NCBI GenBank assembly: GCA_002706335.1
Contig: PAKZ01000024.1
Location: 186,001 to 250,000, forward strand
DNA length: 64,000 nucleotides
Reading direction: 5' to 3'
Origin: Ahrensia sp.
Lineage (GTDB): Bacteria > Pseudomonadota > Alphaproteobacteria > Rhizobiales > Rhizobiaceae
Shown: positions 43,318-61,123 of the stretch, piece after piece
Layout of the letters: every line of letters starts with the position of its first letter
Position numbering within the stretch: the stretch's first letter is position 1
Notes under the pieces: generated by a model
Databases searched by the model: none
The model's input: only the letters and a program-made list of their open reading frames with translations
Told to the model about the DNA's origin: nothing
Position numbers and translations under genes: made by a program

Positions 43318-43330
43318 CGCGGTGAGATCG

Positions 43331-44332: not shown

Positions 44333-44334
44333 TC

Positions 44335-45174: not shown

Positions 45175-45177
45175 TCC

Positions 45178-45879
45178 ATGCACATACTTGTCATCAATCC
45201 CAATTCGACAGCTTCGATGACGCGTACGATAGAGGCGGCGGCGAAAGCTGTGGCCGGGCAGGGGACGACGATCACCGCAGTCAATCCGACCGACACGCCG
45301 TCGGCCATTCAGGGCGCGGAAGACGGAGCGGCTGCGCTTCCGGGCCTGTTTCGCCTATTCCAGGCCGAAGTGGTCGAAAAGGGCGGCTATGACGCCTGCA
45401 TAATCGCCTGTTTCGACGATACCGGGCTGATGGCGCTTAAAACGCGCTCACCGGTGCCTGTCATCGGGATCGGCGAAGCCGCGTTTCATGCCGCCATGCT
45501 CGTCGGCGAGCGGTTTTCGGTGGTGACGACGCTCGGCGTCTCGGTGCCGGTGATCGAGGCCAATCTCGCAGCTTATGGATTTGCCGCCCGCTGCGGCAAG
45601 GTGCGTGCGTCGGAGGTGCCGGTGTTGTCGCTTGAGACGGACAAGGACGTGTCGTGCGAGACTATCGCAGCAGAAATCGCCGCCGCTCTCGAGGATGACA
45701 AGCCCGACGCAATCGTGCTTGGATGCGCCGGAATGGCCGACCTCGCATTGACCCTTTCCGATCGCTTCCGACTGCCGGTGATCGACGGCGTTGCGGTGGC
45801 GATCGCGCTGGCCGAGGGATTGCGCGCGGCCAATGCCGATCGCTGGGCAGGATCGGGACGTGGGACCCGCGTCGCATGA
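45178..45879 (+). CDS. Asp/Glu/hydantoin-racemase-family protein, allantoin/hydantoin racemase type
   Basis: This 233-aa protein starts with ILVINPNSTASMT, and has the two catalytic cysteines in ACFDDTGL and LGCAGMADL, both as in hydantoin and allantoin racemases. It would interconvert enantiomers of a cyclic ureide or hydantoin. It begins 3 bp after the permease stop. Maleate isomerases and arylmalonate decarboxylases share the fold, but the DDTG and GCAGM contexts favour the racemase group. Confidence 0.85.
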   Translation: MHILVINPNSTASMTRTIEAAAKAVAGQGTTITAVNPTDTPSAIQGAEDGAAALPGLFRLFQAEVVEKGGYDACIIACFDDTGLMALKTRSPVPVIGIGEAAFHAAMLVGERFSVVTTLGVSVPVIEANLAAYGFAARCGKVRASEVPVLSLETDKDVSCETIAAEIAAALEDDKPDAIVLGCAGMADLALTLSDRFRLPVIDGVAVAIALAEGLRAANADRWAGSGRGTRVA

Positions 45880-46736: not shown

Positions 46737-46742
46737 GCCCCC

Positions 46743-47414
46743 GTGACGAAATCGACCAGCCATGCCCATTTCGACTTTTCCGAACTTGGCGAGCGTGATC
46801 GTTACAAGCTGCTGATCGGGACGGTGATCCCGCGCCCGATTGCGTTGATCACAACGCTGGGGCTCGACGGGCGCGCGAATGCCGGGCCATTCTCCTTCTT
46901 CAACGTGCTGACGCATGATCCCGCCATCGTCGCCATCGGTGTGGAGAACCACGCAGATATGCGTTTCAAGGACACGGCGCGCAATATTCGCGAGACCGAG
47001 GAATTCACGGTGCATATCGCCGACCATGCGATGGTCGAGAAGATGGAGGTCTGCGCGATTAAGTTCGGGCCCGAGGTGGACGAACTGGCCGAAGCCGGTT
47101 TCACGACCGTGCCGGGGCAGATGGTACGCAGCCCGCGTATTCTGGAGGCGCCGGCGGCTTTGGAGTGCCGTCGCTCTATGACGCTGGAGATCAGCCAGGC
47201 GCGCGAGATTATCCTCGGCGAGGTGCTCGGCGTCTTCGTGCGCGAAGATCTTGTCAATGACCGCCTGCACGTCGACAAATACGGTATGGACGCTGTCGGC
47301 CGCCTCGGCGGTCATTCCTATTGCCGGATACGCGACCAGTTCGAGATAAAGACGCTGACGCCGGAGGAGTGGGCTCTCGGCAAACGACCGACGGAAACGG
47401 AGAGCCAGCCGTGA
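46743..47414 (+). CDS. Flavin-reductase-like FMN-binding protein
   Basis: This 223-aa protein has the flavin-reductase-like split-barrel fold (VIPRPIALITTLGLDGRANAGPFSFFNVLTHDP). These bind FMN and supply reduced flavin to monooxygenases or act alone on small substrates. The start is a GTG at 46743 with a weak ribosome-binding site; coupling to the preceding gene (stop 7 bp upstream) is likely. No partner monooxygenase lies in this operon. Confidence 0.85.
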   Translation: MTKSTSHAHFDFSELGERDRYKLLIGTVIPRPIALITTLGLDGRANAGPFSFFNVLTHDPAIVAIGVENHADMRFKDTARNIRETEEFTVHIADHAMVEKMEVCAIKFGPEVDELAEAGFTTVPGQMVRSPRILEAPAALECRRSMTLEISQAREIILGEVLGVFVREDLVNDRLHVDKYGMDAVGRLGGHSYCRIRDQFEIKTLTPEEWALGKRPTETESQP

Positions 47415-48289
47415 CTCTTCCGCATCACGGACGCTATCCCTTTTCGCCGATAGTTGGTCGGCCGGTTTTTTTCTGGCCGGACGGCAGGGGGCTTGCCGTC
47501 TATCTTGGCATGAACCTGGAGTGTTTCTCGTTCGGAGAAGGGCTGGGCGCGGAACTGAGCTATGGCGGTCCGCAGCCGGATATCCTCAATTATGCCTGGC
47601 GCGATTACGGCAACCGGGTCGGCGTCTGGCGGATGATCGAACTGTTCGACCGCCTCGGTATGCCTTGTACCGCTCTCGTCAACAGCGAGATGTACGAGGT
47701 CGCGCCGGAGGTTGTCGCGGCCTTTCGCGACCGGGGCGACGAGATCGCCGGGCATGGACGGACCAATGCGGAAATGCAGGGCGTCTTCCCGGAAGCCGAG
47801 GAGGCGCGGCTGATTGCCGAGGCGACCGGGACCGTCACACGGCATGAGGGCAGGGCGCCGAAAGGGTGGCTGGGGCCATGGATTTCGCAGAGCCGGGGCA
47901 CGCCGGACCTGTTGCAGGAAGCGGGCTACGACTACCTTCTCGACTGGTGCCATGACGACCAGCCGGTCTGGATGGAGACGCGCAATGGCCGTATCCTGTC
48001 CGTTCCCTATCCGCAGGAACTGAACGACATCCCGCAGATTGTCGGGCGCAAGCATGAGGGCAGGGAATTCGCCGACATGATCGTCGACGCCTTCGAGGTC
48101 ATGCTGGCGGAAAGCGAAAGGCGGCCGCTCGTCATGGGCATCGCGCTGCATGCCTATCTGATGGGGCAACCGCATCGCTTCCGACATCTGGAGAAGGCCC
48201 TTGAATATATCCGCGACAAGGGCGGCAAGCGGGTCTGGTGGACGACCGCCGGCGCGATCAACGACCATTACCGGGCGCTCGATCTCTAG
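47411..48289 (+). CDS. Polysaccharide-deacetylase-fold hydrolase (PuuE allantoinase/cyclic imide hydrolase-like)
   Basis: This 292-aa NodB-fold protein resembles PuuE-type allantoinases and cyclic-imide hydrolases, not sugar deacetylases: YPFSPIVGRPVFFWPDGRGLAVYLGMNLECFSFG and ILNYAWRDYGNRVGVWRMIELFDRLGMPCTALVNSE fit that group. It would open a cyclic amide ring. The start is a GTG overlapping the flavin-reductase stop (GTGA). It ends with a 4-bp overlap with the convergent amidohydrolase. Confidence 0.85.
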   Translation: MTLPHHGRYPFSPIVGRPVFFWPDGRGLAVYLGMNLECFSFGEGLGAELSYGGPQPDILNYAWRDYGNRVGVWRMIELFDRLGMPCTALVNSEMYEVAPEVVAAFRDRGDEIAGHGRTNAEMQGVFPEAEEARLIAEATGTVTRHEGRAPKGWLGPWISQSRGTPDLLQEAGYDYLLDWCHDDQPVWMETRNGRILSVPYPQELNDIPQIVGRKHEGREFADMIVDAFEVMLAESERRPLVMGIALHAYLMGQPHRFRHLEKALEYIRDKGGKRVWWTTAGAINDHYRALDL

Positions 48290-49848
48290 CCTTTTGGGGC
48301 TGGGTGAAACCGATTGTAGCGATAGGGCGTGTGGTCGGTGACGACGCCCGTGCCGCCGATGAATTGCTCCAGATGGGGGATCAGCGCGTTGACCATGTTC
48401 CAGGCATTCGCCTCCGCGGCCGTTTCGGGTGCGGCGAGGATATCCCTGATTTCCTGCATGACCGCGTCCCGGTCGATCCCGGTTACGCGACCGTTCTCGA
48501 CAACCTTGCGGCCCGCCACGAAGACCTGATCGATGGCGGATTTCGACGCCCGGTGAAGAACGGTATCGGCGAGTGGAGTGCGTGGCGAAACGAAGGGGCG
48601 CTCGATATCCGCGCGACGCATCAGAACGATGTCGGCTTGCATGTTCGGCTCCAGCCGTCCTGTGACGCCTCCGAACCCCGCCGACCGCGCGCCATGTTCC
48701 GTCGCCATCTGCAGCACGTTTGCCGCGTCGGGCCGGTCGTTGAACAGGCCGCTTTCGCGATGCAGCGCCCAGACCAGTTTCATTTCGATGGTCATGTCAC
48801 GATCGTCCATGATGTTGGACTGGTCGATGCCGAGCGCGACCGGGATCTTCTTCCCCCGCATGCGGTTGACCGGCGCGATGCCGCTGCCAAGCCGCAGGCC
48901 GGAGCCGGCATTGTGGCAGACCATGCAGCCGCATTCGCCCAGCAGGTCGAGATCGGCTTCAGTTGCCCAGTTGCCGTGTCCGAGCGTCAATTCTGGTCCG
49001 AGGCAATCGAGTGCGGCCAGGTGCTGGATCGCCGTGTGGCCGTAACGCGTTTCCGCGACCCGCGCCTGCCGCTCCGTCTCAAGGAGATGCATGTGAACAC
49101 TTGCGCCATGTTTGCGCGCGGTCTCCAAGATCAGTTGCAGGCTATCGTCGCTGCACCAGTGAAGATTGGCCGGCGCGAGGCTCATCCGGACAGTGGGATC
49201 GTCCGCATATTGGACCCGCATTGCCTCGAAGAACTCCATGTAGTCGCGCGTCGGCGTCGCAGCCGCAGCGAGTTGAGGAGCGATCCAGTCGCGAAGATCT
49301 CCCGGGAGCGTCGCAAGCAGCTTCGCATCGTCATCGTAGGAGAGCACGTTGCGGTCGCGCATCATGAAGGAATAGGAGACCCGCATGCCGATCTCGCCAT
49401 AGGCGGAAAGGATCGCATCCATCGTTGCCTCCCAGTTCTCCGGCGTTCCGACAAGGCCGCTATTGATATGGTGGACCGTCGTTGTGCCGCTTTCGAGCAT
49501 TTCGATCGCGGAATAGAGGGTGTCGAGACGGGGCCCGACGCCGCGCATGGCGCGAAAGCGCGGCAACCAGAACTCGAGCGGCGCGAAGGGCACGCCGCCC
49601 ATCAAAGGCGTGATGCCGAAATGGTGGTGGCTGTTGACGAAGCCGGGCAGGGCGATCATCCCCGCGCCGCTTTCGCGAGGCAGGTCGGGGTGGCGCGCGG
49701 TCAGATCGGCGGCAGGGCCGATCTCGGCGATATATCCGTCTTCAACCAGAATTGCTGCATCGCCGAGGCCGTTCGGATCATCGTCGGGGCGAAAGCCGGC
49801 AAGAACAGCGCCGGCGGTCAGAAGGAAGGAGCGCTGCCCCTCAGCCAT
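48286..49848 (-). CDS. Metal-dependent amidohydrolase (TrzN/AtzB/guanine-deaminase-like)
   Basis: This 520-aa amidohydrolase-superfamily enzyme has NSHHHFGITPLMGG (HxH metal motif), HMHLLETE, LGHGNWATEAD (His), CHNAGSGLRLGSGIAPVN and GIDQSNIMDDRDMT (metal Asp). This layout fits the mononuclear deaminase/chlorohydrolase branch that acts on N-heterocycles. It is cotranscribed with the TetR gene (8-bp overlap) and convergent with the σ54-driven operon. ATG at 49848 is chosen over upstream codons inside the TetR gene. Confidence 0.88.
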   Translation of the reverse strand: MAEGQRSFLLTAGAVLAGFRPDDDPNGLGDAAILVEDGYIAEIGPAADLTARHPDLPRESGAGMIALPGFVNSHHHFGITPLMGGVPFAPLEFWLPRFRAMRGVGPRLDTLYSAIEMLESGTTTVHHINSGLVGTPENWEATMDAILSAYGEIGMRVSYSFMMRDRNVLSYDDDAKLLATLPGDLRDWIAPQLAAAATPTRDYMEFFEAMRVQYADDPTVRMSLAPANLHWCSDDSLQLILETARKHGASVHMHLLETERQARVAETRYGHTAIQHLAALDCLGPELTLGHGNWATEADLDLLGECGCMVCHNAGSGLRLGSGIAPVNRMRGKKIPVALGIDQSNIMDDRDMTIEMKLVWALHRESGLFNDRPDAANVLQMATEHGARSAGFGGVTGRLEPNMQADIVLMRRADIERPFVSPRTPLADTVLHRASKSAIDQVFVAGRKVVENGRVTGIDRDAVMQEIRDILAAPETAAEANAWNMVNALIPHLEQFIGGTGVVTDHTPYRYNRFHPAPKG

Positions 49849-50443
49849 TGGCCATGAGACGCGCGGCTGCGTTGCGCCCGTGATCGGCGACATTGGGATC
49901 GCGTGTGATCAGCGCGGCGACGATGGCACCGTCTATCAGGAGATTGAGTTCATGGGTAAGCCCGTCCGGATCGTCCGGCCGCGCGTCGCGCGCGAGTTCG
50001 GTGATCTTGCCCAGCACGATCTTCTTGTGTTTCAGCGTCAGCAGACGGATGCGGTCGTCTTCCTTGTCATGCTCACCGACGGCATTGATGAAGGGGCAGC
50101 CGTAGAAATTCTCCTCGGCAAACCATTTTTTCAGGACGTCGAAAAGGTGCACGAGCCTGTCGCTGGCGGAGCCGGGCAGGGCGTCGACTTCCGCCGAGAA
50201 CCACTCCCGCCAGGTCGAACCTTCCCGTTCCAGCACGGCCTCGATCAGGCCTTCCTTCGAGCCGAACGCCTTGTAGAGGGTTGTCTTTGCCGTTCCGGCG
50301 GCGGCGACGATCGCGTCTACCCCCGTAGCGTTGATGCCATAGCGGCAAAAGAGGTCGCTCGCCGCCAGAAGAAGGCGCTCCCGCGCGGCTCCCGGGTAGT
50401 GGGCGATGTTGTCCGCGGCGGTTGTGGCGGGTTCGGCGGTCAC
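49841..50443 (-). CDS. TetR-family transcriptional regulator
   Basis: This 200-aa regulator has a typical TetR helix-turn-helix (RERLLLAASDLFCRYGINATGVDAIVAAAGTAKTTLYKAFGSKEGLIEAV, residues about 21-70) and a variable ligand domain with GCPFINAVGEH, as in the YxaF/LmrA-like subgroup. It lies upstream of, and divergent from, the cyanase-containing ABC operon. Imperfect palindromes there (50644-50661 and 50696-50713) are its probable operators. Confidence 0.9.
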   Translation of the reverse strand: MTAEPATTAADNIAHYPGAARERLLLAASDLFCRYGINATGVDAIVAAAGTAKTTLYKAFGSKEGLIEAVLEREGSTWREWFSAEVDALPGSASDRLVHLFDVLKKWFAEENFYGCPFINAVGEHDKEDDRIRLLTLKHKKIVLGKITELARDARPDDPDGLTHELNLLIDGAIVAALITRDPNVADHGRNAAARLMANG

Positions 50444-50531
50444 GGCGACCTCCCAGGGTGAACAGAACGATCATTATCCCTTAGATCGCCGGAAGACCTT
50501 TTTCAACGGTTAGAAAATCCGCTTCTCACAA

Positions 50532-50548
50532 GTGTACCCGGGGTACAC
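50532..50548. promoter_or_regulatory. Perfect 17-bp palindrome GTGTACCC-G-GGGTACAC
   Basis: It lies about 130 bp upstream of the -24/-12 promoter and 90 bp from the TetR start. The distance suits an enhancer site for a σ54 activator, though the sequence is not a clear NtrC site. It could also be a second repressor site. Confidence 0.55.
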
Positions 50549-50643
50549 CGCCCTTCATTTTCTGACGCTTTTTCAAGCAGCGCCTTATCTTTGTGCATTG
50601 CGAAATGACCGGATTTTCGGGCTTTCCGGGAAAAATCCATAGG

Positions 50644-50713
50644 AAACAGACCGTTATGTTTCTGACTCGGTTTGGCACGCTTCCTGCTTACAGGGAAACA
50701 GAACGGTATGTTG
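50644..50713. promoter_or_regulatory. Two TetR-operator-like sites AACAnAnCGnTnTGTT flanking the σ54 promoter
   Basis: AAACAGACCGTTATGTTT (50644-50661) ends just before the -24 element, and AAACAGAACGGTATGTTG (50696-50713) covers the expected transcription start. Both fit one imperfect palindrome of 18 bp, 52 bp apart. A half-copy (AACAGAACG) lies at 50461, next to the TetR start. Position suggests repression by the TetR protein. Confidence 0.6.
50673..50688 (+). promoter_or_regulatory. σ54 (-24/-12) promoter of the cyanase-containing operon
   Basis: TGGCAC-GCTTC-CTGCT has GG and GC exactly 12 bp apart and one mismatch (C for the first T of the -12 box). Transcription would begin near 50698. 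That leaves about 30 nt before the TTG start at 50729 and its AGGAG. Confidence 0.7.
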
Positions 50714-50728
50714 CATAGGAGAAATACC

Positions 50729-51568
50729 TTGAAGGGTGCGCATCTCGCTGTCGAAAAAATCTGCCACACCTACAGGCGCGGCCGGCAGCAAGCTCTTTCG
50801 GATATCGATCTTGAGGTGAAACCGGGCGAGGCGCTAGCGCTTGTTGGCCGGTCCGGTTGCGGCAAGTCGACGCTTTTGCACATCATGTCGGGCCTGCTCG
50901 CGCCGACTTCGGGCAAGGTTTTCATCGACGGCGCGCGCGTGGAGGCGCCATCGCCACGCTGGGTGGTGATGTTCCAGCAGCCGTCGCTTTATCCCTGGAT
51001 GACGGTTGCCCAGAATGTGGCGCTTGGCCTGCGCTTCACCGGGCGCGCGAACGAGATCGCGAGCCGCGTTCCCGAAATGCTCAAGCTGGTCGAACTGTCC
51101 GACTACGCCAATCGCAATGTGCAGGATCTGTCGGGCGGGCAACAGCAGCGTGTGGCACTGGCCCGTTCGCTGGCGCCGAGCCCGGAAATCCTGTTCCTCG
51201 ATGAGCCGTTTTCAGCGCTCGACGCCTTTACGCGCGGGAGCTTGCAGCGCGATGTCCGCCGCATCGCCAAAGATCTCGGCATCACGCTGGTTCTTGTCAC
51301 CCATGACCTGCCCGAGGCGGTGACCATGGTCGAGCGCGCCGTGGTGCTCGCCGCCAACCCCGGCCGCATCAGCGAGATCGTTCCGATCGACCTGGAAAAT
51401 CGCGATGATTTGCGGACGCCGGAATATGCCAAGGCGCGCAGCCGTCTTGCCGCCGCCTACGAGAATGCCGCCGGCCGTGGCCTGCGGCCGACCGCCGAAC
51501 CGGCTCCAACACTTCGCTCAATCGGTGACAGGCAGACCCAAACCTCCGCTGTGCCCGCGGCCCGTTGA
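50729..51568 (+). CDS. Nitrate/sulfonate/taurine-type ABC transporter ATPase
   Basis: This 279-aa ATPase (SsuB/TauB/NrtD-like) has Walker A GRSGCGKST, LSGGQQQRVALARSL, ILFLDEPFSALD and the switch His of VTHDLPEA. I chose the TTG at 50729 (AGGAG 7 bp upstream); an ATG at 50708 would leave only about 10 nt of leader after the predicted σ54 start site. It heads the cyanase-containing operon. Confidence 0.88.
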   Translation: MKGAHLAVEKICHTYRRGRQQALSDIDLEVKPGEALALVGRSGCGKSTLLHIMSGLLAPTSGKVFIDGARVEAPSPRWVVMFQQPSLYPWMTVAQNVALGLRFTGRANEIASRVPEMLKLVELSDYANRNVQDLSGGQQQRVALARSLAPSPEILFLDEPFSALDAFTRGSLQRDVRRIAKDLGITLVLVTHDLPEAVTMVERAVVLAANPGRISEIVPIDLENRDDLRTPEYAKARSRLAAAYENAAGRGLRPTAEPAPTLRSIGDRQTQTSAVPAAR

Positions 51569-51596
51569 TCTTACTCCAGCACGGAAAGGATACCCC

Positions 51597-52859
51597 ATGA
51601 CTGACAAATCCAGGAAAGACGGCAAGACCACGGATTGGGATGACGAGTATTTCCCGACCGATTTCACCCGCCGCCAGACGCTCGACATGTTCGCTGCCGG
51701 AGGTTTGATGGCGGCTCTCGGTCCGTTGATCGGAGCCATGAGCTCGCCGGCCTTCGCCGCCGCCTCCGACGAGGTGGTGCGCACCGGATATCTGCCGATC
51801 ACGGACGCCACGGCGCTGCTCGTCGCCCACGGCATGAACTTCTTCGAGGACGAAGGCCTGAAGACCGAGCGCCCGACGCTGATCCGTGGCTGGTCGCCGC
51901 TGGTCGAGGGCTTCGTCGCCGGCAAGTTCAACCTGGTGCCCTTCCTCAAGCCGATCCCGGTCTGGATGCGTTACAACAACAATATCCCGGTCAAGCTGAT
52001 GGCCTGGGCGCACACCAACGGCTCGGGTCTCGTCGTCGGCGGTCACACCGACATCCATGATTTCAGCCAGCTCGGCGGCAAGCAGGTCGCGGTGCCGTTC
52101 TGGTACTCGATGCACAACATCGTTCTGCAATATGCACTGCGCAAATCCGGCGTTAAGGCGGTCATCAAGGGCGAGGGCGAAGCGCTCGCCGCCGACGAGT
52201 GCAATCTGCAGATCCTGCCGCCGCCGGAAATGCCCGCCGCGCTCGCCTCGAAGAAGATCGACGCCTACATCGTAGCGGAGCCGTTCAATGCGCTGGGCGA
52301 GATCAAGGCCGGCGCACGCATGCTGCGCTTCACCGGCGACATCTGGAAGAACCATCCGTGCTGCGTGATCTGCATGCATGAGCAGGCCACGACCGAAAAG
52401 CAGGAATGGACCCAGAAGGTCATGAATGCGGTCGTCCGCGCGCAGATCTATGCTTCGCAGAACAAGAAGGAGGCCGCCCGGCTGATGTCGAAGGACGGAG
52501 AGGGCTTCCTGCCGATGCCGGCCGAGGTCGTCGAACGGGCGATGACGCTCTACACGGACGAGGCCTCCTACACGGAAAGCGGTGCGATCAAGCACGCCGC
52601 GGAATGGGGCAATGGCCGCATCGACTTCCAGCCCTGGCCCTATCCGTCGGCCACCAAGCTGATCGTCGAGGAGATGAACAAGACCGTGGTCGGCGGTGAC
52701 ACGACCTTCCTCGACAATCTGGACCCGCAATTCGTGGCCGACGATCTTGTCAACTACGACTTCGTCAGAAACGCACTCGAGAAATATCCCGAATGGAAGA
52801 ACGACCCGTCCGTCAATCCGGGCGATCCGTTCAACCGCGAAGAGGTTCTCGCGCTGTGA
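51597..52859 (+). CDS. Nitrate/sulfonate/cyanate-type ABC transporter binding protein
   Basis: This 420-aa binding protein (NrtA/SsuA/CynA class, NMT1-like) has a twin-arginine-like signal (FTRRQTLDMFAAGGLMAALGPLIG... AFAAAS). Stretches RTGYLPITDATALLVAHGMNFFEDEGL and GWSPLVEGFVAGKFNLVPFLKPIP resemble the nitrate/cyanate branch more than SsuA. KGYPMTDK-type ATG at 51597 has AAAGGA upstream. With cyanase in the operon, a small N-bearing anion is a plausible ligand. Confidence 0.9.
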   Translation: MTDKSRKDGKTTDWDDEYFPTDFTRRQTLDMFAAGGLMAALGPLIGAMSSPAFAAASDEVVRTGYLPITDATALLVAHGMNFFEDEGLKTERPTLIRGWSPLVEGFVAGKFNLVPFLKPIPVWMRYNNNIPVKLMAWAHTNGSGLVVGGHTDIHDFSQLGGKQVAVPFWYSMHNIVLQYALRKSGVKAVIKGEGEALAADECNLQILPPPEMPAALASKKIDAYIVAEPFNALGEIKAGARMLRFTGDIWKNHPCCVICMHEQATTEKQEWTQKVMNAVVRAQIYASQNKKEAARLMSKDGEGFLPMPAEVVERAMTLYTDEASYTESGAIKHAAEWGNGRIDFQPWPYPSATKLIVEEMNKTVVGGDTTFLDNLDPQFVADDLVNYDFVRNALEKYPEWKNDPSVNPGDPFNREEVLAL

Positions 52860-53695
52860 GCAGCACGGACATCATAGCCGATCCGGCCGACATGGCGGCC
52901 GGATCTGATCCCGACAGGACCGGCCGGTTGAAGGCGGCGCGGAGCCTCGGCTTCGCGATCCTCGGCATGGCGCTGCTGCTGGCAGCCTGGTGGGTCGGCG
53001 GTTACGCGGTTCAGAACAATCCGGCGACGACGGCGTTTGCCGATTTTGCACCGGAGCCGGCACTGACCCGTCTTGGCGAGATGCTGTCCTCGGGCGAGGC
53101 GATGCAGATGACGGTGCCAAGCCTGCAGCGCGTGCTGCAGGGAATGGTCATCGCCATCGCGATCGGCGTGCCTGTCGGCATCCTTGTCGGACGCTTCCAG
53201 GTGCTGCGCGAGGTCACCAACATTCCGTTCCAGTTCCTGCGGATGATCTCGCCGCTGTCCTGGATGCCGATCGCGGTGATGGCTTTTGCGACATGGGACG
53301 GGGCCATCGTGTTCCTGATCGCGGTCGCAGCCGTCTGGCCGATCCTGTTCTCGACGGCGGCCGGGCTGCGCCGGGTCGATCCGTCCTGGTTCAAGGTCGC
53401 CCGCAATCTCGGCGCGCGGCCCTGGCACATGCTGTTCGTCATCATCCTTCCGGCGATCAGCCAGGACATCCTGACCGGTATCCGCCTGGCGCTCGGCGTC
53501 GCGTGGATCGTGCTGGTGCCCGCCGAATATCTCGGCGTCACCTCCGGCCTCGGCTACTCGATCAACGATGCCCGCGACACGCTCGAATACGACCGCCTCG
53601 CCGCCACGGTCGTGATCATCGGCGTCATCGGCTTCCTGCTCGATTTCGCCTGCCAGCAGGCGATCTCGAAACTCAGTTGGCACCGCGAAGACTGA
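52856..53695 (+). CDS. Nitrate/sulfonate/taurine-type ABC transporter permease
   Basis: This 279-aa permease has about six spans and the loop FKVARNLGARPWHMLFVIILPAISQDILTGIRLALGVAWIVLV, typical of SsuC/TauC/NrtB. The GTG start at 52856 overlaps the binding-protein stop (GTGA). It is a homodimeric permease, as usual in this class. Confidence 0.92.
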   Translation: MSSTDIIADPADMAAGSDPDRTGRLKAARSLGFAILGMALLLAAWWVGGYAVQNNPATTAFADFAPEPALTRLGEMLSSGEAMQMTVPSLQRVLQGMVIAIAIGVPVGILVGRFQVLREVTNIPFQFLRMISPLSWMPIAVMAFATWDGAIVFLIAVAAVWPILFSTAAGLRRVDPSWFKVARNLGARPWHMLFVIILPAISQDILTGIRLALGVAWIVLVPAEYLGVTSGLGYSINDARDTLEYDRLAATVVIIGVIGFLLDFACQQAISKLSWHRED

Positions 53696-53741
53696 AGCGG
53701 GCCGATTTCCAACCCACACGGACAAGAAGAGGAGAATCCAA

Positions 53742-54281
53742 ATGTCCAGCCAACCTGCAACCGCCCTGACGGGCTGCCTCGCACCGATCGACAAGACCGG
53801 CCTCGACAGCCTGATCGAAAAGGGCAAGGCCGATCCGAAGGCCGTCAAGACGCTGAAGTGCAAGACCGTCGCGGAAGGCCGCTTCCGCCACGCCAACTAC
53901 ATCCGCGACCTGGCGCCCTACATCGTCGACGAGCCGCCGGGCCTCTTGGGCGACGACACTGCGCCGAACCCCTCCGAGGCCTCGCTGGCCGCGCTCGGGT
54001 CCTGCGTCGCCGTCGGCCTGCATGCCAATGCGATCCATCGCGGCATCACCATCAACTCGCTCGAGGTCGAACTCGAAGGTGATCTCAACATCACCGCCGT
54101 CTGGGGCACGGGCGACGTTTCCGAGAAGCCTGTCGGCTTCACCGATGTGCGCATCATCGTCCACATGGATGCCGACGCGCCGCAGGAGACCATCGACGAG
54201 CTGATCGCGCACGTCACCCAGTGGTCGCCGGTGTTCAACACCTTCTCGCGGCCGGTGAACATGGTCGCTCAATCCGCTTGA
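53742..54281 (+). CDS. OsmC-family protein
   Basis: This 179-aa OsmC-like protein carries the conserved PNPSEASLAALGSCVAVGLHANA (Cys88). The other peroxidatic Cys of classical OsmC/Ohr is not evident in its usual place, so simple peroxidase activity is doubtful; it may handle a sulfur species or thiol adduct instead. AGAGGAGA lies before the ATG. Confidence 0.85.
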   Translation: MSSQPATALTGCLAPIDKTGLDSLIEKGKADPKAVKTLKCKTVAEGRFRHANYIRDLAPYIVDEPPGLLGDDTAPNPSEASLAALGSCVAVGLHANAIHRGITINSLEVELEGDLNITAVWGTGDVSEKPVGFTDVRIIVHMDADAPQETIDELIAHVTQWSPVFNTFSRPVNMVAQSA

Positions 54282-54288
54282 GCCTTTC

Positions 54289-54318
54289 GGCCGCGCCTTT
54301 CTCGCGAGGGGCGCGGCC
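54289..54318 (+). terminator. Attenuator hairpin after the OsmC-family gene
   Basis: GGCCGCGCC (54289-54297) and GGCGCGGCC (54310-54318) form a perfect 9-bp stem with a 12-nt loop, followed by TTTG. It probably reduces, but does not stop, transcription into the next gene. Confidence 0.6.
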
Positions 54319-54349
54319 TTTGTCCCAATCGTTTGTCCAGGAGACCGAG

Positions 54350-55462
54350 ATGAACATCGTCGCCCAAATCAACACCATCGATTTCGACGAGATCGAGCGT
54401 ATCTCGTCGAGCGATCTCACATCGCTCGCGCGCAAGATCGACGACGAGCGCATTTACCCCGAGGAGATCGTGCGGGCCTATGGCGCCGCCGGTGCGTATG
54501 GGAGCCATGTCGGCGGTCTCGACGGCAATGTCGATCTGACCCATGCGATCACCGCGATGGCGCGGGCGTCGGAAGTCTGTCTTTCGACCGGCTTCTGTGT
54601 GTGGTGCCAGGACACGCTGGCCTGGTACATCGCGTCTTCCGACAATGATTTCCTGAAAGCTGAAGTTCTGCCCAAGGTGGCCAAGGGACAGGCGCTTGGC
54701 GGCACCGGCATGTCCAATCCGATGAAGGCGATGGGCGAGATCGAGCGCATGCGCCTGAAGGGCGAACGCGTCGAGGGCGGCTACAAGGTCAAGGGCGTGC
54801 TGCCCTGGGTCTCGAACCTTGTCGAGGACGGCTATTTCGGCACGATTTTCGATGTCGAAGTGGAGGGCGAGGACAAGCCGAAGCGTGTCATGGCGATCGT
54901 CCATGCGGCCTGGGACGGCATCAGCCTTCGCCTCGACCACGACTTCGTCGCGATGGGCGGCACCGCCACCTGCAACGTGCAGTTCCGCGACGTGTTCGTG
55001 CCCGACGAATATCTGCTCAGCGATCCGGCAGAACCCTTCGTCAAGCGCATCCGCGCCGGCTTCACGCTGCTGCAATGCGGCATGGCGGCCGGCATCATCA
55101 AGAACTGCATCGACCTGATGAAGCAGGTGCAGGGGCCGCTCGGCCACGTCAACAAATATCTGGAAAAGCAGCCGGAGGACATCGAGGCCGAATACGAGGC
55201 GCTCGTGGCCGACGTGCTGGAGATGGCGAAGACGCCCTATGACCCCTCCAATGCCTTCTACAAGCGCGTGCTCCAGGCCCGGCTGAGGGGCGGCGAGCTG
55301 TCGGTCGAGGCGGCGCATTGGGCGCAACTGCATTGCGGTGCGCGCGGCTATGTCAGCCAGGGCGCGGCGCAGCGGCGCCTGCGCGAAGCCTATTTCGTCG
55401 CGATCGTGACGCCGGCCACCAAACATCTGCGCAAGATGATCGCCGAGCTCGACGCGGCCTGA
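54350..55462 (+). CDS. Acyl-CoA-dehydrogenase-fold flavoprotein (possible SfnC/DszC-like monooxygenase)
   Basis: This 370-aa protein has the acyl-CoA dehydrogenase fold (GGTGMSNPMKAMGEIERMRLKGERVEGGYKVKGVLPWVSN; ALRGGEL... CGARGYVSQGAAQRRLREAYFVAIVTPAT). Clusters with transport and sulfur genes often use such proteins as two-component flavin monooxygenases acting on organosulfur compounds rather than acyl-CoA. The catalytic base of acyl-CoA dehydrogenases is not obvious. Its ATG at 54350 follows an upstream GGAGACCGAG. Confidence 0.8.
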   Translation: MNIVAQINTIDFDEIERISSSDLTSLARKIDDERIYPEEIVRAYGAAGAYGSHVGGLDGNVDLTHAITAMARASEVCLSTGFCVWCQDTLAWYIASSDNDFLKAEVLPKVAKGQALGGTGMSNPMKAMGEIERMRLKGERVEGGYKVKGVLPWVSNLVEDGYFGTIFDVEVEGEDKPKRVMAIVHAAWDGISLRLDHDFVAMGGTATCNVQFRDVFVPDEYLLSDPAEPFVKRIRAGFTLLQCGMAAGIIKNCIDLMKQVQGPLGHVNKYLEKQPEDIEAEYEALVADVLEMAKTPYDPSNAFYKRVLQARLRGGELSVEAAHWAQLHCGARGYVSQGAAQRRLREAYFVAIVTPATKHLRKMIAELDAA

Positions 55463-55501
55463 GTGTTTTGACCCCCGGTGCGAAGGAAAAGGAGCCCGCA
55501 C

Positions 55502-56356
55502 ATGACTGAGACCACGCTTGTAACCCCCAAGGAACTCGCCAGTCTGATGGAAAGCGAGCCTTGCGTCCTGATCGATACGCGCGACGGCGACAGCTACGCC
55601 TCCGGCCATTTGCCGGGCGCGGTGAACATGCATGATATCTTCACCTTCCTCGCCACGTCCTCCGCCGAGGGCGTGCATGAACTGACCGACAAATTCGCGG
55701 ACGAGTTCGGTGCCGCCGGATTGTCGGGTGAAGAAACCGCTGTCATCTACGAGCAATCGATGAACACCGGCTTCGGCCAGTCCTGCCGGGGCTTCTTCCT
55801 GCTGAAATTCCTCGGCTATCCCAAGGTCAAGGTGCTGCATGGCGGCTACCAGGCCTGGACGGCCGAAGGGATGCCCGTTTCCACCGAAGCGGTGACGCCC
55901 GCGCCGAAGACATTCCCGATCACCGACACGGGCCATAATCTCATGCTCGACGTGGCGGACGTGCAGGCGGCGCTCGGCGACGACAAGATCGTCATGCTCG
56001 ACGTGCGCGATGTCGATGAGTGGATTGCCGACTCCTCGTCGCCCTATGGCAAGGACTTCTGCCCGCGCAAGGGCCGCCTTCCGGGCGCCCGGTGGATCGA
56101 GTGGTACCGGATGATGAAGCCGTCGGCGGAAGGTCCGATGATCAAGTCGAAGGACGAGATCCTGGCTGAATGCGCCACGGTCGGCATCAAGGCCGATACG
56201 CCGGTCTACATCTACTGCTTCAAGGGCGCCCGCGCCTCCAACACGTTCCTCGCTCTGAAGGAGGCGGGCATCAAGGATGTCCGCATCTATTTCGGTTCGT
56301 GGAACGAATGGTCGCGTGATCCCTCGCTTCCGATCGAGGAAGGCCTGCCGTTCTGA
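55502..56356 (+). CDS. Two-domain rhodanese-family sulfurtransferase
   Basis: This 284-aa protein has two rhodanese domains. The first (about 1-130) has Ser86 where the active Cys would be (VIYEQSMNTG), so it is probably structural. The second (about 145-284) has the active-site loop YIYCFKGARASNT with Cys239. This is the thiosulfate/3-mercaptopyruvate sulfurtransferase layout. In this operon it may accept sulfur freed from the substrate. ATG at 55502 follows AAAAGGAG. Confidence 0.9.
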   Translation: MTETTLVTPKELASLMESEPCVLIDTRDGDSYASGHLPGAVNMHDIFTFLATSSAEGVHELTDKFADEFGAAGLSGEETAVIYEQSMNTGFGQSCRGFFLLKFLGYPKVKVLHGGYQAWTAEGMPVSTEAVTPAPKTFPITDTGHNLMLDVADVQAALGDDKIVMLDVRDVDEWIADSSSPYGKDFCPRKGRLPGARWIEWYRMMKPSAEGPMIKSKDEILAECATVGIKADTPVYIYCFKGARASNTFLALKEAGIKDVRIYFGSWNEWSRDPSLPIEEGLPF

Positions 56357-56424
56357 CGGCAAGCCGGATCACATCTGCCGCGGGCGGCAAATAACCGCCC
56401 CGGTACGACTGATTGGGAGAGAAG

Positions 56425-57600
56425 ATGAGCGAACCGATTGTCATCGTGGGAGCCGGGCAGGCCGGTATCAAAGCCGCGGAAACGCTGCGGCTGAAGAGCT
56501 ATGAGAGCGACATATTGCTGATCGGCGAGGAGAAATGGCCGCCTTCCCAGCGCCCGCCGCTCTCCAAGGCTTACCTGAAGGGGGAATTGTCGGAGGATCG
56601 ACTGCTTCTCAAGGCTGCCGATTATTACGACAAGGCGAGGGTCGCGCTGACGACCGGTTCGCGCGTCGCGGCGATCGATCCCGTTGGACATCAACTGACC
56701 TTCACCGACGGCAGGACGCAATCCTGGTCGAAATTGCTTCTGACGACCGGCACGCGCGCCCGCACATTGCCGCTGACCGGCGGTGATCTCGAAGGCGTGT
56801 TCTCCCTGCGCGGGATCGACGACACGAAACGGATCGGCCTTGCACTGGAGGCGGCGCAGAGCGTCGCAATCATCGGCGGCGGATATATCGGTATGGAGTT
56901 CGCCGCCGTTGTACGTTCCCTTGGCAAGCAAGTCACCGTCATCGAAGCGCAGGACCGCATCCTGAAACGGTCCGTCGCGCCCGAAATTTCGAGTTTCTTC
57001 CAGGATCTGCATGCCAGCCATGGCGTCCGGCTGGCGCTAGGCGAGGGGGTTAACTGCATCGTCGGCGCCGACCGGGCCGAAGGTGTCGAACTGGCGTCGG
57101 GCGAAATGGTTGCCGCGGACCTCGTGCTGGTGGCCGCAGGTGCCGTGCCGGTGACGGAGCTTGCCGAGGCGGCGGGCATTGCGGTTGAGCGCGGGATCGT
57201 TGTCGACGAAGCCTGCCGGACCAGCGCTCCCGACATCTTTGCCGCGGGCGATTGCACCGTCTTCCCGTCGCGTCGCTACGGCCGGCGGATCGGGCTCGAA
57301 AGCGTCCAGAACGCCTCGGACCAGGGAAAGGCTGCTGCGCTTTCCATGCTTGGCGAGCAGACAATCTACGACCCGGTGCCGTGGTTCTGGTCAGACCAGT
57401 ATGACGTGAAACTGCAGATCGCCGGCTTGTCCGCCGGATACGACCGCACAGAGCTCGTCGGCGAACCGGGCGAGGGGCGCTTCGCACTGCGCTACTTTGC
57501 CGGCGACACGCTTCTCGCCGTCGATGCCGTCAACGATCCGCGCTCCCACATGATGGCGCGCAAGGAAATCGCCGTCCGCGACCATGCCCTGGCCGCCTGA
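56425..57600 (+). CDS. FAD-dependent ferredoxin/rubredoxin reductase-type oxidoreductase
   Basis: This 391-aa reductase has an FAD-binding site IVIVGAGQAGIKAAETLR, an NAD(P) site VAIIGGGYIGMEFAA, the FAAGDCTVFP loop and a C-terminal reductase domain with FWSDQYDVKLQIAG. It resembles ferredoxin reductases of oxygenases. No ferredoxin gene is beside it, so it may deliver electrons to the flavoprotein or act directly. ATG at 56425 follows GGGAGAGAAG. Confidence 0.9.
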   Translation: MSEPIVIVGAGQAGIKAAETLRLKSYESDILLIGEEKWPPSQRPPLSKAYLKGELSEDRLLLKAADYYDKARVALTTGSRVAAIDPVGHQLTFTDGRTQSWSKLLLTTGTRARTLPLTGGDLEGVFSLRGIDDTKRIGLALEAAQSVAIIGGGYIGMEFAAVVRSLGKQVTVIEAQDRILKRSVAPEISSFFQDLHASHGVRLALGEGVNCIVGADRAEGVELASGEMVAADLVLVAAGAVPVTELAEAAGIAVERGIVVDEACRTSAPDIFAAGDCTVFPSRRYGRRIGLESVQNASDQGKAAALSMLGEQTIYDPVPWFWSDQYDVKLQIAGLSAGYDRTELVGEPGEGRFALRYFAGDTLLAVDAVNDPRSHMMARKEIAVRDHALAA

Positions 57601-57645
57601 CGATCCACCCGATGACCAGAATTCGACCGCGAAAGGAGAATGCAG

Positions 57646-58131
57646 ATGAACGTGGTTAGCTCAATGCCGGCTGTGCTGATGTCAAAGGTCGAGATGACCG
57701 AATTGATCATGGCCGCGAAATTCATCCAGAAGAAAAGCTGGAAAGACATCTCGGCGGCTGCCGGCATGTCCGAGGTCTTTGTCGTTTCGGCCTGTCTCGG
57801 CCAGAACTCGCTGCCTGCCGAAGCGGCTGCGAAATTGGCGGGCTTCCTCGATCTCGGCAACCGCGCCAGGGATGTTGAAATCGCCCTGCAACTGCCGCCG
57901 AAGAAAGGCCAGGAAGCCGAAACCGTCTCCAAGGATCCGCTGATCTACCGCTTCCACGAGATCATCTATGTCTATGGCGACACGATCAAGGAACTGATCC
58001 ACGAGGAGTTCGGCGACGGCATCATGAGCGCAATTGATTTCGACCTGAAGATCGACCGGATCGAGAACCCGAAGGGCGACCGCGTCAAGGTGTCGATGAC
58101 CGGCAAGTTCCTGAAATACAATCAGTGGTAA
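57646..58131 (+). CDS. cynS: Cyanase (cyanate hydratase)
   Basis: This 161-aa enzyme converts cyanate and bicarbonate to ammonia and CO2 (via carbamate) and forms a decamer. The catalytic residues Arg102, Glu105 and Ser128 (in DPLIYRFHEIIYVYGDT and GDGIMSAIDFDLKI) match Arg96, Glu99 and Ser122 of the E. coli enzyme with a constant offset of 6. The N-terminal helical part and C-terminal KVSMTGKFLKYNQW are typical. ATG at 57646 lies 7 bp after AGGAG; the ATG at 57640 is too close. No carbonic-anhydrase (cynT) gene is beside it. Confidence 0.95.
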   Translation: MNVVSSMPAVLMSKVEMTELIMAAKFIQKKSWKDISAAAGMSEVFVVSACLGQNSLPAEAAAKLAGFLDLGNRARDVEIALQLPPKKGQEAETVSKDPLIYRFHEIIYVYGDTIKELIHEEFGDGIMSAIDFDLKIDRIENPKGDRVKVSMTGKFLKYNQW

Positions 58132-58317: not shown

Positions 58318-59079
58318 ATGGACGACCTGTTCGGCCGGCATGCGGTTGTGACCGGCGCCGGAAGCGGCCTTGGGGAGGCGATCGCGCTGTCTCTCGCCGA
58401 AAACGGAGCGCGCGTCACGGCGATGGGCCGACGACGCGAGCCGCTCGAGGCCCTTGCCCGGCGAAACAGCCGTATCGTCGCCGTCGAGGCCGACGTCACG
58501 AATGGCGAAAGCTTCGCCGCCGCGATCCAGAAGGCCGTCGATGCAAACGACATGATCGATATCGTCGTCGCCAATGCCGGCATGGCCGACAGCGAGCCCT
58601 TCAAGAAAATGACCGAAGCGCATTTCCGGTCGATCGTTGATGTCAATCTTGTCGGTGTTTTCAATACGTTCCGGGCATGTTTTGACAAGATGATACATGG
58701 GCCGAATGGCCGCCTGATCGCCATCTCCTCGATCGCCGGGCTGCACGGCCATCCCTACATGTCCGCTTACTGCGCGTCCAAACACGGCGTGATCGGCCTC
58801 GTCCGTGCGCTCGCGATGGAAGTGGCGAAGACCGGCGTGACCGTCAATGCGATCTGTCCCGGCTATACCGAGACGCCGATGCTGACGCACACTATCGAAA
58901 ACATCATGGAGAAAACCGGGCGCACGCGCGAAGAGGCGGAAGCGCCGATCCTCTCGACCAACCCGCAGGGGCGGTTCATCAAGCCGGAGGAGGTCGCGGC
59001 GACGGCGCTCTGGCTGTGCAGTTCGGGCGCGGCGTCGGTGAACGGGCAGGCGATCGAAATGTCCGGCGGCGGCAGTTGA
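58318..59079 (+). CDS. Short-chain dehydrogenase (3-hydroxybutyrate-dehydrogenase-like)
   Basis: This 253-aa SDR has TGAGSGLG, VANAGMADS, the S of AISSIAG and YCASK, and an ATP-like end (NPQGRFIKPEEVA). Sequence style is that of 3-hydroxyacyl or 3-hydroxybutyrate dehydrogenases. It lies 11 bp before the kynureninase gene and shares its operon, so it may act on a product of kynurenine or anthranilate breakdown. GGGAGGATGATCT precedes the ATG. Confidence 0.87.
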   Translation: MDDLFGRHAVVTGAGSGLGEAIALSLAENGARVTAMGRRREPLEALARRNSRIVAVEADVTNGESFAAAIQKAVDANDMIDIVVANAGMADSEPFKKMTEAHFRSIVDVNLVGVFNTFRACFDKMIHGPNGRLIAISSIAGLHGHPYMSAYCASKHGVIGLVRALAMEVAKTGVTVNAICPGYTETPMLTHTIENIMEKTGRTREEAEAPILSTNPQGRFIKPEEVAATALWLCSSGAASVNGQAIEMSGGGS

Positions 59080-59090
59080 GCGGGGCGGCG

Positions 59091-60284
59091 ATGACGGATT
59101 TCAGCAGAACGCGCGATCTCTTCCATCTTCCGGACGGGGTAATCTATCTCGACGGCAATTCCCTCGGCCCGCTGCCGAAGACCGCGCTCGCACGCGCCAC
59201 TCGCACCATGGCCGACGAATGGGGCGAGATGCTCATCGGCGGCTGGAACAAGGCGCAGTGGATGGCGATGCCGGGGCAGATCGGTAACCGCATCGCCAGG
59301 CTGATCGGCGCGGAGGAGGGCAGCGTCGTTATTGGCGACACGCTGTCCATCAAGGTCTACCAGGCGCTCGCCTCGGCGCTCGACTTGCGGCCCGACCGCA
59401 GGATCGTGCTGTCGGACAGCGGAAACTTCCCGACCGATCTCTACATGGCGGAAGGATTGTTGCGCACCCTCGACAAGGGGCACGAATTGAAGATCGTCGC
59501 GCCGGAAGACGTCGCCTCGGCGATCGACGAGACTGTGGCGGCGGTCATGCTCACCCATGTCGATTACGGGACCGGACGCATGCATGACATCGCCGAAATC
59601 ACGCGGCTGACGCATGAAGCCGGCGCGATCTCGATTTGGGATCTGGCGCATTCGGCGGGCGCCGTTCCGGTGGACCTCGCCGGTTGCGGCGCCGATTTCG
59701 CGACGGGCTGCACCTACAAATATCTCAATGGCGGGCCGGGCGCACCGGCCTTCATCTATGTTCGTCCCGGCTTGCAGGAGAGCGCAAGGCCGGCCCTTTC
59801 AGGCTGGCTCGGCCATGAAGCGCCCTTCGCTTTCGACCTCGATTACCGGCCGGCCGGCGGTGTCGAGCGAATGCGCGTGGGCACGCCGCCGGTGATCCAG
59901 ATGGCCGTCCTCGATGCCGCGCTCAATGCCTGGGGGGGCATTGATATCGCGGACGTGCGGAAGCGGTCGATCGAGCTCAGCGAATTGTTCATCGCGGAGG
60001 TCGAGGCCGGGACGGACAAGTTAGCGCTTGCCAGTCCGCGGGATGCGAATGCGAGAGGATCTCAGGTCTCCTTCAGGTTTCATCAGGGTTACTCGGCGAT
60101 GCAGGCGCTAATCGCGCGCGGCATCATCGGCGACTTCCGCGCGCCGGACCGCATGCGCTTCGGTTTCTGCCCGCTCTACAACACGCCGGAGGAAATCCGC
60201 CGCGCCGCTGCGGCACTGTGCGAGATCGTCGAGACCGATGCCTGGAACCGGCCCGAATTCCTCAAGCGCGAGGCCGTCACGTGA
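59091..60284 (+). CDS. kynU: Kynureninase
   Basis: This 397-aa PLP enzyme cleaves kynurenine to anthranilate and alanine. Lys210 in [11 protein letters not shown] binds PLP; Asp184 and His187 lie in the WDLAHSAG motif. [12 protein letters not shown] and [11 protein letters not shown]-like text ([12 protein letters not shown]) are family marks. It overlaps the tryptophan dioxygenase gene (GTGA). Anthranilate-forming tryptophan catabolism is therefore present, although no formamidase (kynB) is adjacent. Confidence 0.94.
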
Positions 60285-61123
60285 CCTCGGAAAAGGATTA
60301 CGATCCGTCCGGCGAGGGCGCCACGATGAGTTTCGACGGCCGCATGTCCTATACGGATTATTTGCGGCTCGACGACATTCTCGGCGCGCAGGACCCGCTT
60401 TCCGATGCGCATGACGAGATGCTGTTCATCGTTCAGCATCAGACGTCCGAATTGTGGATGCGGCTCGCCATCCACGAACTGACCGCTGCACGGACCGCGA
60501 TCGCCGGAGACAGGCTGCCGCCGGCGATGAAGATGCTCGCCCGCGTGTCGCGGATCTTCGAGCAGCTGAATTCGTCATGGGACGTTCTGCGCACCATGAC
60601 GCCCAGCGAATACACGCATTTTCGCGAGAAGCTCGGCCAGTCATCGGGCTTCCAGTCCTCGCAATACCGCCTGATCGAATATCTGCTCGGCAACCGCAAC
60701 CATGCGATGCTGCGCCCGCATGCGCATCGCCCAGACATCGCGCCGCGGCTGGAAGCCGAACTGGCGACACCGAGCCTTTACGACGAGGTTCTGCGTCTTG
60801 CCGCGCGCCGCGGCATCGCCATGCCGGCTTCGGTCCTGACGCGTGACGTCTCGCAGACCCACCGGCCGGACGATCGCGTGATCGCCGGATGGCGCACGGT
60901 CTATGAAGCGCCCGAGGCTCATTGGGACCTCTACGAACTCGCCGAGAAGCTGGTCGATTTCGAGGACTATTTCCGCCGCTGGCGCTTCAATCACGTCACC
61001 ACGGTGGAGCGCGTCATCGGGTTCAAGCGCGGCACCGGCGGCACCGGGGGCATCAGCTATCTGAAGCGGATGCTGGAGGTCGAACTGTTCCCGGAGCTCT
61101 GGCACGTTCGCACGGAACTCTGA
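60281..61123 (+). CDS. kynA: Tryptophan 2,3-dioxygenase
   Basis: This 280-aa heme dioxygenase opens the indole ring of tryptophan to give N-formylkynurenine. His238 ([22 protein letters not shown]) is the heme ligand; His53 ([10 protein letters not shown]) and Arg115 ([13 protein letters not shown]) match the active-site residues of Xanthomonas TDO. The start is a GTG overlapping the kynU stop. It is the last gene of the operon. Confidence 0.95.

Follow-up and report, generated by a model that had tools for sequence, protein, structure and literature searches.

A cyanase-terminated operon of Ahrensia sp. with a proposed role in the assimilation of a nitrogen- and sulfur-containing anion

Introduction

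Which compound is used by an operon that ends in a cyanase gene and carries, in front of it, genes for an ABC transporter, an OsmC-like protein, an acyl-CoA-dehydrogenase-fold flavoprotein (ACD), a two-domain rhodanese and a ferredoxin-type reductase? This set of genes lies in a stretch of 64,000 nucleotides from Ahrensia sp. (assembly GCA_002706335.1, contig PAKZ01000024.1, positions 186,001 to 250,000 of the forward strand), the whole of which is called the window here and within which all positions are counted. An earlier reading, made from the letters of the window alone (the sequence-only reading), had proposed that a compound containing both nitrogen and sulfur (N/S compound) is imported and oxidised or desulfurised, that the sulfur passes to the rhodanese and that the cyanate passes to the cyanase.

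We have followed up this proposal by comparing the locus with its relatives. Its core was strengthened by the gene neighbourhoods of the relatives, by the variety of cyanases and of their positions and by a persulfide-dioxygenase-like protein that stands in for the rhodanese; it was weakened in part, since relatives that keep the other genes without an adjacent cyanase, named beforehand as a finding that would speak against it, do occur. Overall, the module probably makes cyanate from an N/S compound. More tentatively, and at a little short of an even chance, we propose that the operon acts on thiocyanate, or on an N/S pseudohalide closely analogous to it, by oxygenative desulfuration and so serves to assimilate its nitrogen and probably its sulfur.

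Results

Organization of the operon

The eight genes lie on one strand between 50729 and 58131:

50729..51568, + strand: ABC transporter ATPase (start TTG; ABC_tran PF00005, 121 bits)
51597..52859, + strand: substrate-binding protein (SBP) of the NMT1_2/SsuA-NrtA family (start ATG at 51597; PF13379, 131.9 bits)
52856..53695, + strand: ABC transporter permease (start GTG; BPD_transp_1 PF00528, 79.5 bits)
53742..54281, + strand: OsmC-like protein (PF02566; alignments)
54350..55462, + strand: ACD flavoprotein (start ATG; Acyl-CoA_dh_N), the proposed oxygenase/desulfurase
55502..56356, + strand: two-domain rhodanese (PF00581 in two stretches; invariant CFKGAR loop with C239)
56425..57600, + strand: NAD(P)H:ferredoxin-type reductase (Pyr_redox_2 and Reductase_C)
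57646..58131, + strand: cyanase, CynS (start ATG at 57646; PF02560, PF21291, PRK02866, TIGR00673)

Intergenic gaps of 28-68 bp and one overlap of 4 bp make a single transcript plausible. The domains were called with Pfam and NCBIfam scans, and together with a check of the open reading frames these confirm the eight collinear genes and their families as they had been described from the sequence.

Gene neighbourhoods in related genomes

Homologues of ACD were found in 2 of 289 genomes at the level of the class, one of them that of the window itself (E <= 1e-40), in 21 of 397 genomes of the order (E <= 1e-30) and in 24 of 398 genomes of the phylum (profile search, E <= 1e-40). We compared 103 neighbourhoods, namely 20 from the order set, three from plasmids and 80 named loci, the latter being the best 80 of at least 581 confirmed relatives; with the window this gives 104 stretches. 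Some of them end at contig ends, a few are duplicates and Bradyrhizobium is over-represented, and the family counts rest on a purpose-made gene caller based on codon usage. ACD is found in 103 of the 104 stretches, OsmC in 101, the rhodanese in 85, a TetR-family gene in 77 and a cyanase in 68. An SBP of the window type occurs in 55, one of the cyanate type in 43, the reductase in 37 and a σ54 activator in 17.

Four arrangements can be distinguished. In the first, which is that of the window, Oricola, several Roseibium and Breoghania, a divergent TetR gene is followed by the order ABC-SBP-permease-OsmC-ACD-rhodanese-reductase-cyanase. The second (Celeribacter, Thalassovita, Maritimibacter and others) has the cyanase between the rhodanese (or ACD) and the reductase, and in some members a 2Fe-2S ferredoxin follows. 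The third (Bradyrhizobium, Xanthobacter, Hyphomicrobium) consists of TetR and OsmC-ACD-rhodanese, in some cases with the reductase, and then cynABDS with or without an activator. In the fourth, OsmC and ACD are joined by a rubredoxin/reductase fusion and by a cyanase or cynABDS. The order is enhancer-binding protein-OsmC-ACD-rubredoxin/reductase-cynABDS in Caballeronia, OsmC-ACD-rubredoxin/reductase-cynABDS in Acetobacter and ABC transporter-enhancer-binding protein-OsmC-ACD-rubredoxin/reductase-cynS in Marinobacter. Locus L050 also belongs here; its cyn operon and one of Methylobacterium aquaticum share 83% identity.

Some loci hold reduced versions. A row formed by an AhpD-like gene (judged by eye), ACD (36%) and a rubredoxin-like match is found in Neisseria gonorrhoeae (L147 5291-7300) and in genome G780 (L162 7357-9300) and appears to be a reduced relative of the module. 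Units of ABC transporter, OsmC and ACD without rhodanese or nearby cyanase are found in Ferrovibrio, Methylocystis and others (L131, L048, L051, L052, L033); possibly they share the front end and differ in the downstream fate of the product.

Association of the module with cyanase

The window cyanase has both its N- and C-terminal domains and scores 186.1 bits with PRK02866 (cut-off 150) and 142.4 with TIGR00673 (cut-off 113.3). At 15 of the 21 order-set loci and at 53 of the 80 named loci, ACD has a cyanase at a distance of up to about 9 kb, some genomes being in both sets. By our own estimate, a single cyanase placed at random in a 5-Mb genome would come to lie as close as 9 kb to a particular gene with a probability well below 1%. 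Moreover, 19 of the 21 ACD-positive genomes encode a cyanase, compared to 78 of the 376 ACD-negative ones (Fisher p = 7.5e-11, kinship ignored).

In a cyanase tree of 70 rows, the operon-borne cyanases fall into separate, well supported clades, and supported branches force at least four changes each for the position after ACD or rhodanese and for the position after the reductase. The bootstrap of this tree had yet to settle completely, and close to the clade of the window cyanase two long branches come together; three pairs of rows are identical cyanases of the same genomes in the named and other sets (L036/L085, L037/L094, L039/L103). The several supported clades and the forced changes of position suggest that different cyanases were repeatedly inserted into the operon.

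These data bear on the simplest objection, that this is a sulfur-acquisition operon of the sulfonate type with a cyanase next door by chance in this lineage. A distant clade of ACD homologues is indeed found with SsuA-like transporters and shows no clear association with cyanase; it is a sister clade with a support of 100/100 in an ACD tree of 57 rows chosen by hand. The link to cyanase, however, is repeated over different architectures, lineages and operon positions. Chance adjacency was therefore rejected on the tree and the counts, and the sulfonate explanation, already disfavoured by the cyanase tree, is highly improbable.

The genome has a second, complete cyanase operon on another contig (L138), with a divergent σ54 activator, an SBP of the NMT1_2 family, a permease, an ATPase and a cyanase. 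The window cyanase is thus not the only one of the cell, which argues for a dedicated role in its operon.

The flavoprotein

Acyl-CoA_dh_N was the sole acyl-CoA dehydrogenase (ACAD) domain that the Pfam scan reported for ACD. An AlphaFold2 model built with 29 sequences (mean pLDDT 94.6) has the ACAD fold, matching the short-chain acyl-CoA dehydrogenases (SCAD) 2dvl and 2vig with a TM of ~0.8 at 19% identity. The alignment ends just short of the catalytic Glu of these enzymes. When it was extended by hand with the SCAD motif, the position of the catalytic Glu fell on Thr354, which is Thr in 121 of 121 close homologues (at least 38% identity, duplicates included) and in 13 of 14 distant ones. 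We therefore rejected an ordinary acyl-CoA dehydrogenase, an argument that concerns the C-terminal position and not the alternative base in helix G. Cys77 (120 of 121 close and 4 of 14 distant homologues), Cys86 (119 of 121 and 4 of 14) and Lys358 (121 of 121 and 3 of 14) are marks of the close subfamily.

The fold and the neighbouring reductase would fit a two-component ACAD-fold flavin monooxygenase, with O2-dependent oxygenation as a prediction.

OsmC, the reductase and electron carriers

Among named families, the reductase comes closest to the ferredoxin reductases AndAa and HcaD, with scores under the cut-off of each. A 2Fe-2S ferredoxin family lies beside the reductase in seven stretches, and in other relatives the rubredoxin-reductase fusion replaces the reductase. 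A rubredoxin or ferredoxin next to the reductase suggests that ACD is fed electrons from NAD(P)H and thus acts as an oxygenase rather than as a dehydrogenase.

In the OsmC protein, C88 corresponds to the first cysteine of the OsmC/Ohr family and S162 to the second, as placed by a weak alignment to Ohr 6mjn; both are invariant in 17 sequences. An ordinary two-cysteine peroxide reductase was rejected on this replacement of the second redox cysteine. An AhpD-like protein occupies the place of OsmC in Moraxella, and similar look-alikes, judged by eye, replace it in genome G974, in the gonococcus and in G780.

At ten loci (L038, L074, L077, L095, L097, L112, L113, L117, L123, L124), a DsbA-like protein, which we presume to be akin to GST-kappa, follows the rhodanese. 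Nine of these loci have no reductase family in the stretch shown, and one DsbA-like member was scanned.

The transporter

The SBP scores 90 bits with the SsuA_fam model, under its cut-off of 163.5, and shares 25-28% identity with SBPs of the cyn type. Distant ACD homologues are accompanied by SBPs that are 43-51% identical to that of the window. At L098 and L112, the window-type transporter lies between the module and the cyanase, in the very slot that the cyanate-type transporter takes in the third arrangement.

The flanks of the operon hold further genes. Upstream of the TetR gene, at 40971-49893, there are a polyamine-type ABC transporter, an Asp/Glu/hydantoin racemase, a GNAT protein, a flavin reductase, an allantoinase-PuuE-like deacetylase and an amidohydrolase. 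Synteny of the transporter/racemase part next to TetR extends to the Roseibium loci L037, L094 and L101, and two transporter genes of the set are also close to the module at L076. Downstream of the cyanase, a short-chain dehydrogenase/reductase, a kynureninase and a tryptophan 2,3-dioxygenase (58318-61123) apparently form a separate kynurenine unit.

An SBP of the SsuA type would suit an organic N/S substrate, such as an isothiocyanate or its adduct with a thiol, a thiourea, a thioamide, a dithiocarbamate or a thio-heterocycle, which ACD would oxidise while the thiol proteins carry the intermediate, so that cyanate and sulfane sulfur result. The DsbA-like protein after the rhodanese at ten loci suggests thiol-adduct chemistry, and the racemase, allantoinase-like and amidohydrolase genes upstream in the window, with the transporter/racemase part conserved beside the module in Roseibium, point in the same direction. 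Loci that have a CynABD-type transporter alone and no SsuA-type one, however, fit a small cyanate-like anion better, and an organic isothiocyanate is expected to yield an amine rather than free cyanate. We regard an organic substrate as unlikely, though deserving of attention.

Rhodanese and the fate of sulfur

The rhodanese consists of two domains with the active-site cysteine in the C-terminal loop, and has a mean column identity of 77% (12 sequences, window included). Its family occurs in 16 of the 397 genomes of the order and lies at the ACD locus in 15 of these; in the sampled order it appears almost restricted to the module. At L034 (10146-10998), the rhodanese of genome G652 matches in two pieces, as it would with a frameshift or an assembly error. 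L161 belongs to another class of the phylum and has the rhodanese (66%) together with OsmC, ACD and the rubredoxin/reductase fusion; about 10 kb separate its ACD and cyanase genes.

The rhodanese is absent from L049 and L050, where another protein family, common to both, follows the reductase. The L050 member, the one that was scanned and on which the label persulfide-dioxygenase-like rests, scores 383 bits with the dioxygenase part of Blh, the cut-off for the two-domain protein being 625. This substitution may reflect a different handling of sulfane sulfur.

A distant ACD-ABC-SBP-permease quartet is carried by the Synechococcus elongatus plasmid pANL (L145 3708-10904), near cysK, a chromate transporter and a catalase. 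According to its description, pANL encodes many sulfur-related genes, one of which is induced under sulfur starvation (PMC8049743).

A further explanation would be the handling of cyanide. Rhodaneses act on cyanide, and cyanotrophic Pseudomonas likewise has σ54 activator and cyanase genes. In such a system the rhodanese would make thiocyanate, or ACD would oxidise cyanide to cyanate, and cyanase would complete the detoxification. Cyanide, however, requires no ABC importer, the rhodanese is missing from some ACD-cyanase loci, and none of the 20 window proteins scanned (the eight of the operon and 12 neighbours) matched a nitrilase or cyanide-insensitive oxidase family. Handling of cyanide is therefore improbable.

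Promoter and regulation

The region in front of the operon contains the following features:

49841..50443, - strand: TetR-family regulator, divergent from the operon (TetR_N, 49.7 bits)
50532..50548, no strand: perfect palindrome of 17 bp, GTGTACCCGGGGTACAC, lying ~125 bp in front of the -24 element; candidate enhancer site at which a σ54 activator might bind
50646..50659, no strand: TetR operator-like site 1, ACAGACCGTTATGT, a conserved motif
50673..50688, + strand: σ54 -24/-12 promoter TGGCACGCTTCCTGCT, TGGCAC-N5-CTGCT, conserved in relatives
50698..50711, no strand: TetR operator-like site 2, ACAGAACGGTATGT, overlying the transcription start predicted from the -12 element only

The σ54 promoter noted in the sequence-only reading finds support in the relatives. 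Sites scoring at least 19 of 20.5 are found in 46 of 84 upstream regions (window included, many of them closely related), compared to 0.65% of dinucleotide shuffles. At a score of at least 18 of 20.5, 40 of 41 OsmC-first and 14 of 43 ABC-first regions have such a site, compared to 4.0% of shuffles; regions without one are mostly from Rhodobacterales. The element keeps its position before the first gene even where the architecture changes. An OsmC-like gene of Bradyrhizobium sp. DOA9 with the site TGGCACGCTCCATGC at -58 is reported to be strongly down in rpoN mutants, with less cynS too (PMC13207237). Several of the Bradyrhizobium loci compared have these 15 bases in front of OsmC, and it is this identity of promoter sequence, rather than the DOA9 locus itself, that makes the link.

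Operator-like ACAGAnCGnTnTGT sites (at least 10 of 11 positions) occur in 69 of the 84 upstream regions and in 0.15% of dinucleotide shuffles, and in the window two of them, at 50646-50659 and 50698-50711, flank the σ54 promoter. The palindrome is matched at 13 or more of 14 positions in nine of the 84 regions, two of which are from one genome, and in those loci it is found nowhere else; the operator and palindrome motifs were both derived from the same sequences in which they were counted. Its distance from the promoter would fit a σ54 activator site, for which it is a candidate. In front of the genome's own cyn operon, the palindrome has only a weak partial match (11 of 14), and a strong σ54 site was not found.

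The TetR gene is divergent beside the module in the neighbourhood rows that were read. It was not in the list of parts drawn up from the sequence alone, according to which no cyn regulator is present. This holds for the cluster as far as cynT and cynR are concerned; the TetR gene, however, is part of the unit, and elsewhere in the genome there is a separate cyn operon, which has a σ54 activator of its own.

TetR repressors are common in stress operons, and OsmC and the AhpD-like proteins belong to antioxidant families. The operon might thus protect thiols, with OsmC, rhodanese and reductase repairing those hit by cyanate or hypothiocyanite, ACD as an accessory and no assimilation. The missing second peroxidase cysteine of OsmC speaks against this, and a dedicated importer and a σ54 promoter suggest nutrition rather than stress. 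We consider thiol protection very improbable.

Discussion

Proposed pathway

In the scheme that we infer for thiocyanate, which extends to the substrate, its import, the electron path, the use of oxygen and the order of the thiol steps, the ABC transporter would first import the anion. ACD, reduced by the ferredoxin-type reductase via a ferredoxin or rubredoxin, would then activate O2 and oxygenate the sulfur of S=C=N-, assisted by the single-cysteine OsmC as a thiol partner. This chemistry is suggested by the fold, the lost dehydrogenase residue and the electron-carrier neighbours. The sulfur would be released as sulfane sulfur and accepted by the two-domain rhodanese or, as the substitution suggests for two relatives, by the persulfide-dioxygenase-like protein. 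Finally, the cyanase would split the leftover cyanate to CO2 and ammonia, the established chemistry of its family. Expression would require σ54, and the divergent TetR protein probably represses the operon from the conserved operator-like sites.

Several observations weigh against this scheme. The Bradyrhizobium loci that were read have a cluster without reductase and a cyanate-type transporter only. The ferredoxin family was recognised in just 7 of the 104 stretches, compared to 37 with the reductase, and was not found in the window cluster. At L061, L062 and L066, ACD and cyanase occur without a rhodanese between them, so the rhodanese may be dispensable. Conversely, genome G645 (L173 7433-8365) has the double-rhodanese family (65%) beside nirB-like and FocA-like genes (named by reading the sequence), with neither ACD (E <= 1e-30) nor cyanase.

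The cyanase, too, is missing in places. Several relatives conserve the other genes without an adjacent one, which the sequence-only reading had named as evidence to the contrary; four of these (L031, L069, L070, L072) encode a cyanase elsewhere. Among 27 genomes or records, hand-picked mostly for having no nearby cyanase (L095, one of them, has one near the locus edge), 21 have a cyanase elsewhere and six have none, namely G523, G602, the metagenome-assembled genomes G687, G691 and G697, and a plasmid that was searched by itself. G523 has OsmC and ACD; the ACD homologue of G602 is only 28% identical. The AhpD-type genomes G780 and G974 have no cyanase, and of eight genomes with only the distant, transporter-only kind of ACD, four have a cyanase, which is no clear link. 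Moreover, a cyanase in the vicinity of thiocyanate genes is no proof of the cyanate route, as it also occurs beside thiocyanate hydrolase (PMC5328954). Finally, none of the literature passages available reports an assay, a ligand or a mutant of these proteins.

With still more caution than for the operon itself, we suggest that a copper-free, flavin-dependent thiocyanate desulfurase, made up of a ferredoxin- or rubredoxin-fed ACAD-fold oxygenase, a one-cysteine OsmC protein and a sulfane-sulfur acceptor, may serve the assimilation of thiocyanate nitrogen in heterotrophic alpha-, beta- and gammaproteobacteria. Distant ACD cousins beside other SsuA-like transporters would then be oxygenases for further small sulfur anions. 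If thiocyanate desulfuration holds true, the module would add a third type of enzyme to those that break down thiocyanate, and the acyl-CoA dehydrogenase fold would gain a new reaction. The module would further provide a marker gene for thiocyanate breakdown in soil and sea, and give functions to genes at these loci that are annotated just as acyl-CoA dehydrogenase family protein, OsmC family protein or sulfurtransferase.

Comparison with known systems

We found no paper on this gene set (cyanase or thiocyanate together with OsmC, ACD, rhodanese and ABC transporter) in the openly licensed full-text literature, in agreement with the sequence-only reading, which did not know it as a described pathway. 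We rate the locus as a probable N/S-anion assimilation operon that ends in cyanase and whose front end we did not find described.

The canonical cyanate operon, for which we take the gene names to be cynF-cynABDS (NrtA-like transporter, σ54 activator and cyanase), likewise has an ABC importer of the NMT1_2 class and a cyanase at its end. The window cluster differs from it in its SBP, the lack of an activator gene and the additional OsmC, ACD, rhodanese and reductase. It is thus not a cynABDS operon, whereas L138 of the same genome is one.

For thiocyanate, the parts of the sources available describe two routes, the carbonyl sulfide route and a cyanate route with a copper dehydrogenase (PMC5328954, PMC8061750). 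The thiocyanate genes described there belong to sulfur-oxidising autotrophs, and heterotrophs that use thiocyanate as a nitrogen source include Methylobacterium (PMC5328954). The cyanate pathway with thiocyanate dehydrogenase/desulfurase (Thioalkalivibrio, Afipia) has the net reaction that we propose, thiocyanate to cyanate and sulfur and then cyanase. Its enzyme binds copper and has a Tat signal (PMC5328954), with copper sites reported also in PMC8061750; here, in contrast, an ACAD-fold flavoprotein is proposed, apparently for assimilation. All eight proteins of the cluster were assigned to other families than the copper enzyme, although neither the cluster nor the genome was searched with a thiocyanate dehydrogenase sequence. 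The carbonyl sulfide pathway also frees nitrogen from thiocyanate, but the product of thiocyanate hydrolase is carbonyl sulfide. A search of the genome for NHase_alpha was empty, as was its control, so that absence of this family is not shown.

The closest likeness in enzyme type is presumably to the ACAD-fold flavin monooxygenases of organosulfur metabolism, of the DszC/SfnB kind. ACD shares with them the fold, the absence of the C-terminal dehydrogenase base, a separate reductase and a transporter of the SsuA type. In contrast to these enzymes, its partners in the window are OsmC, rhodanese and cyanase, and its electrons appear to come from a ferredoxin or rubredoxin rather than from free FMNH2.

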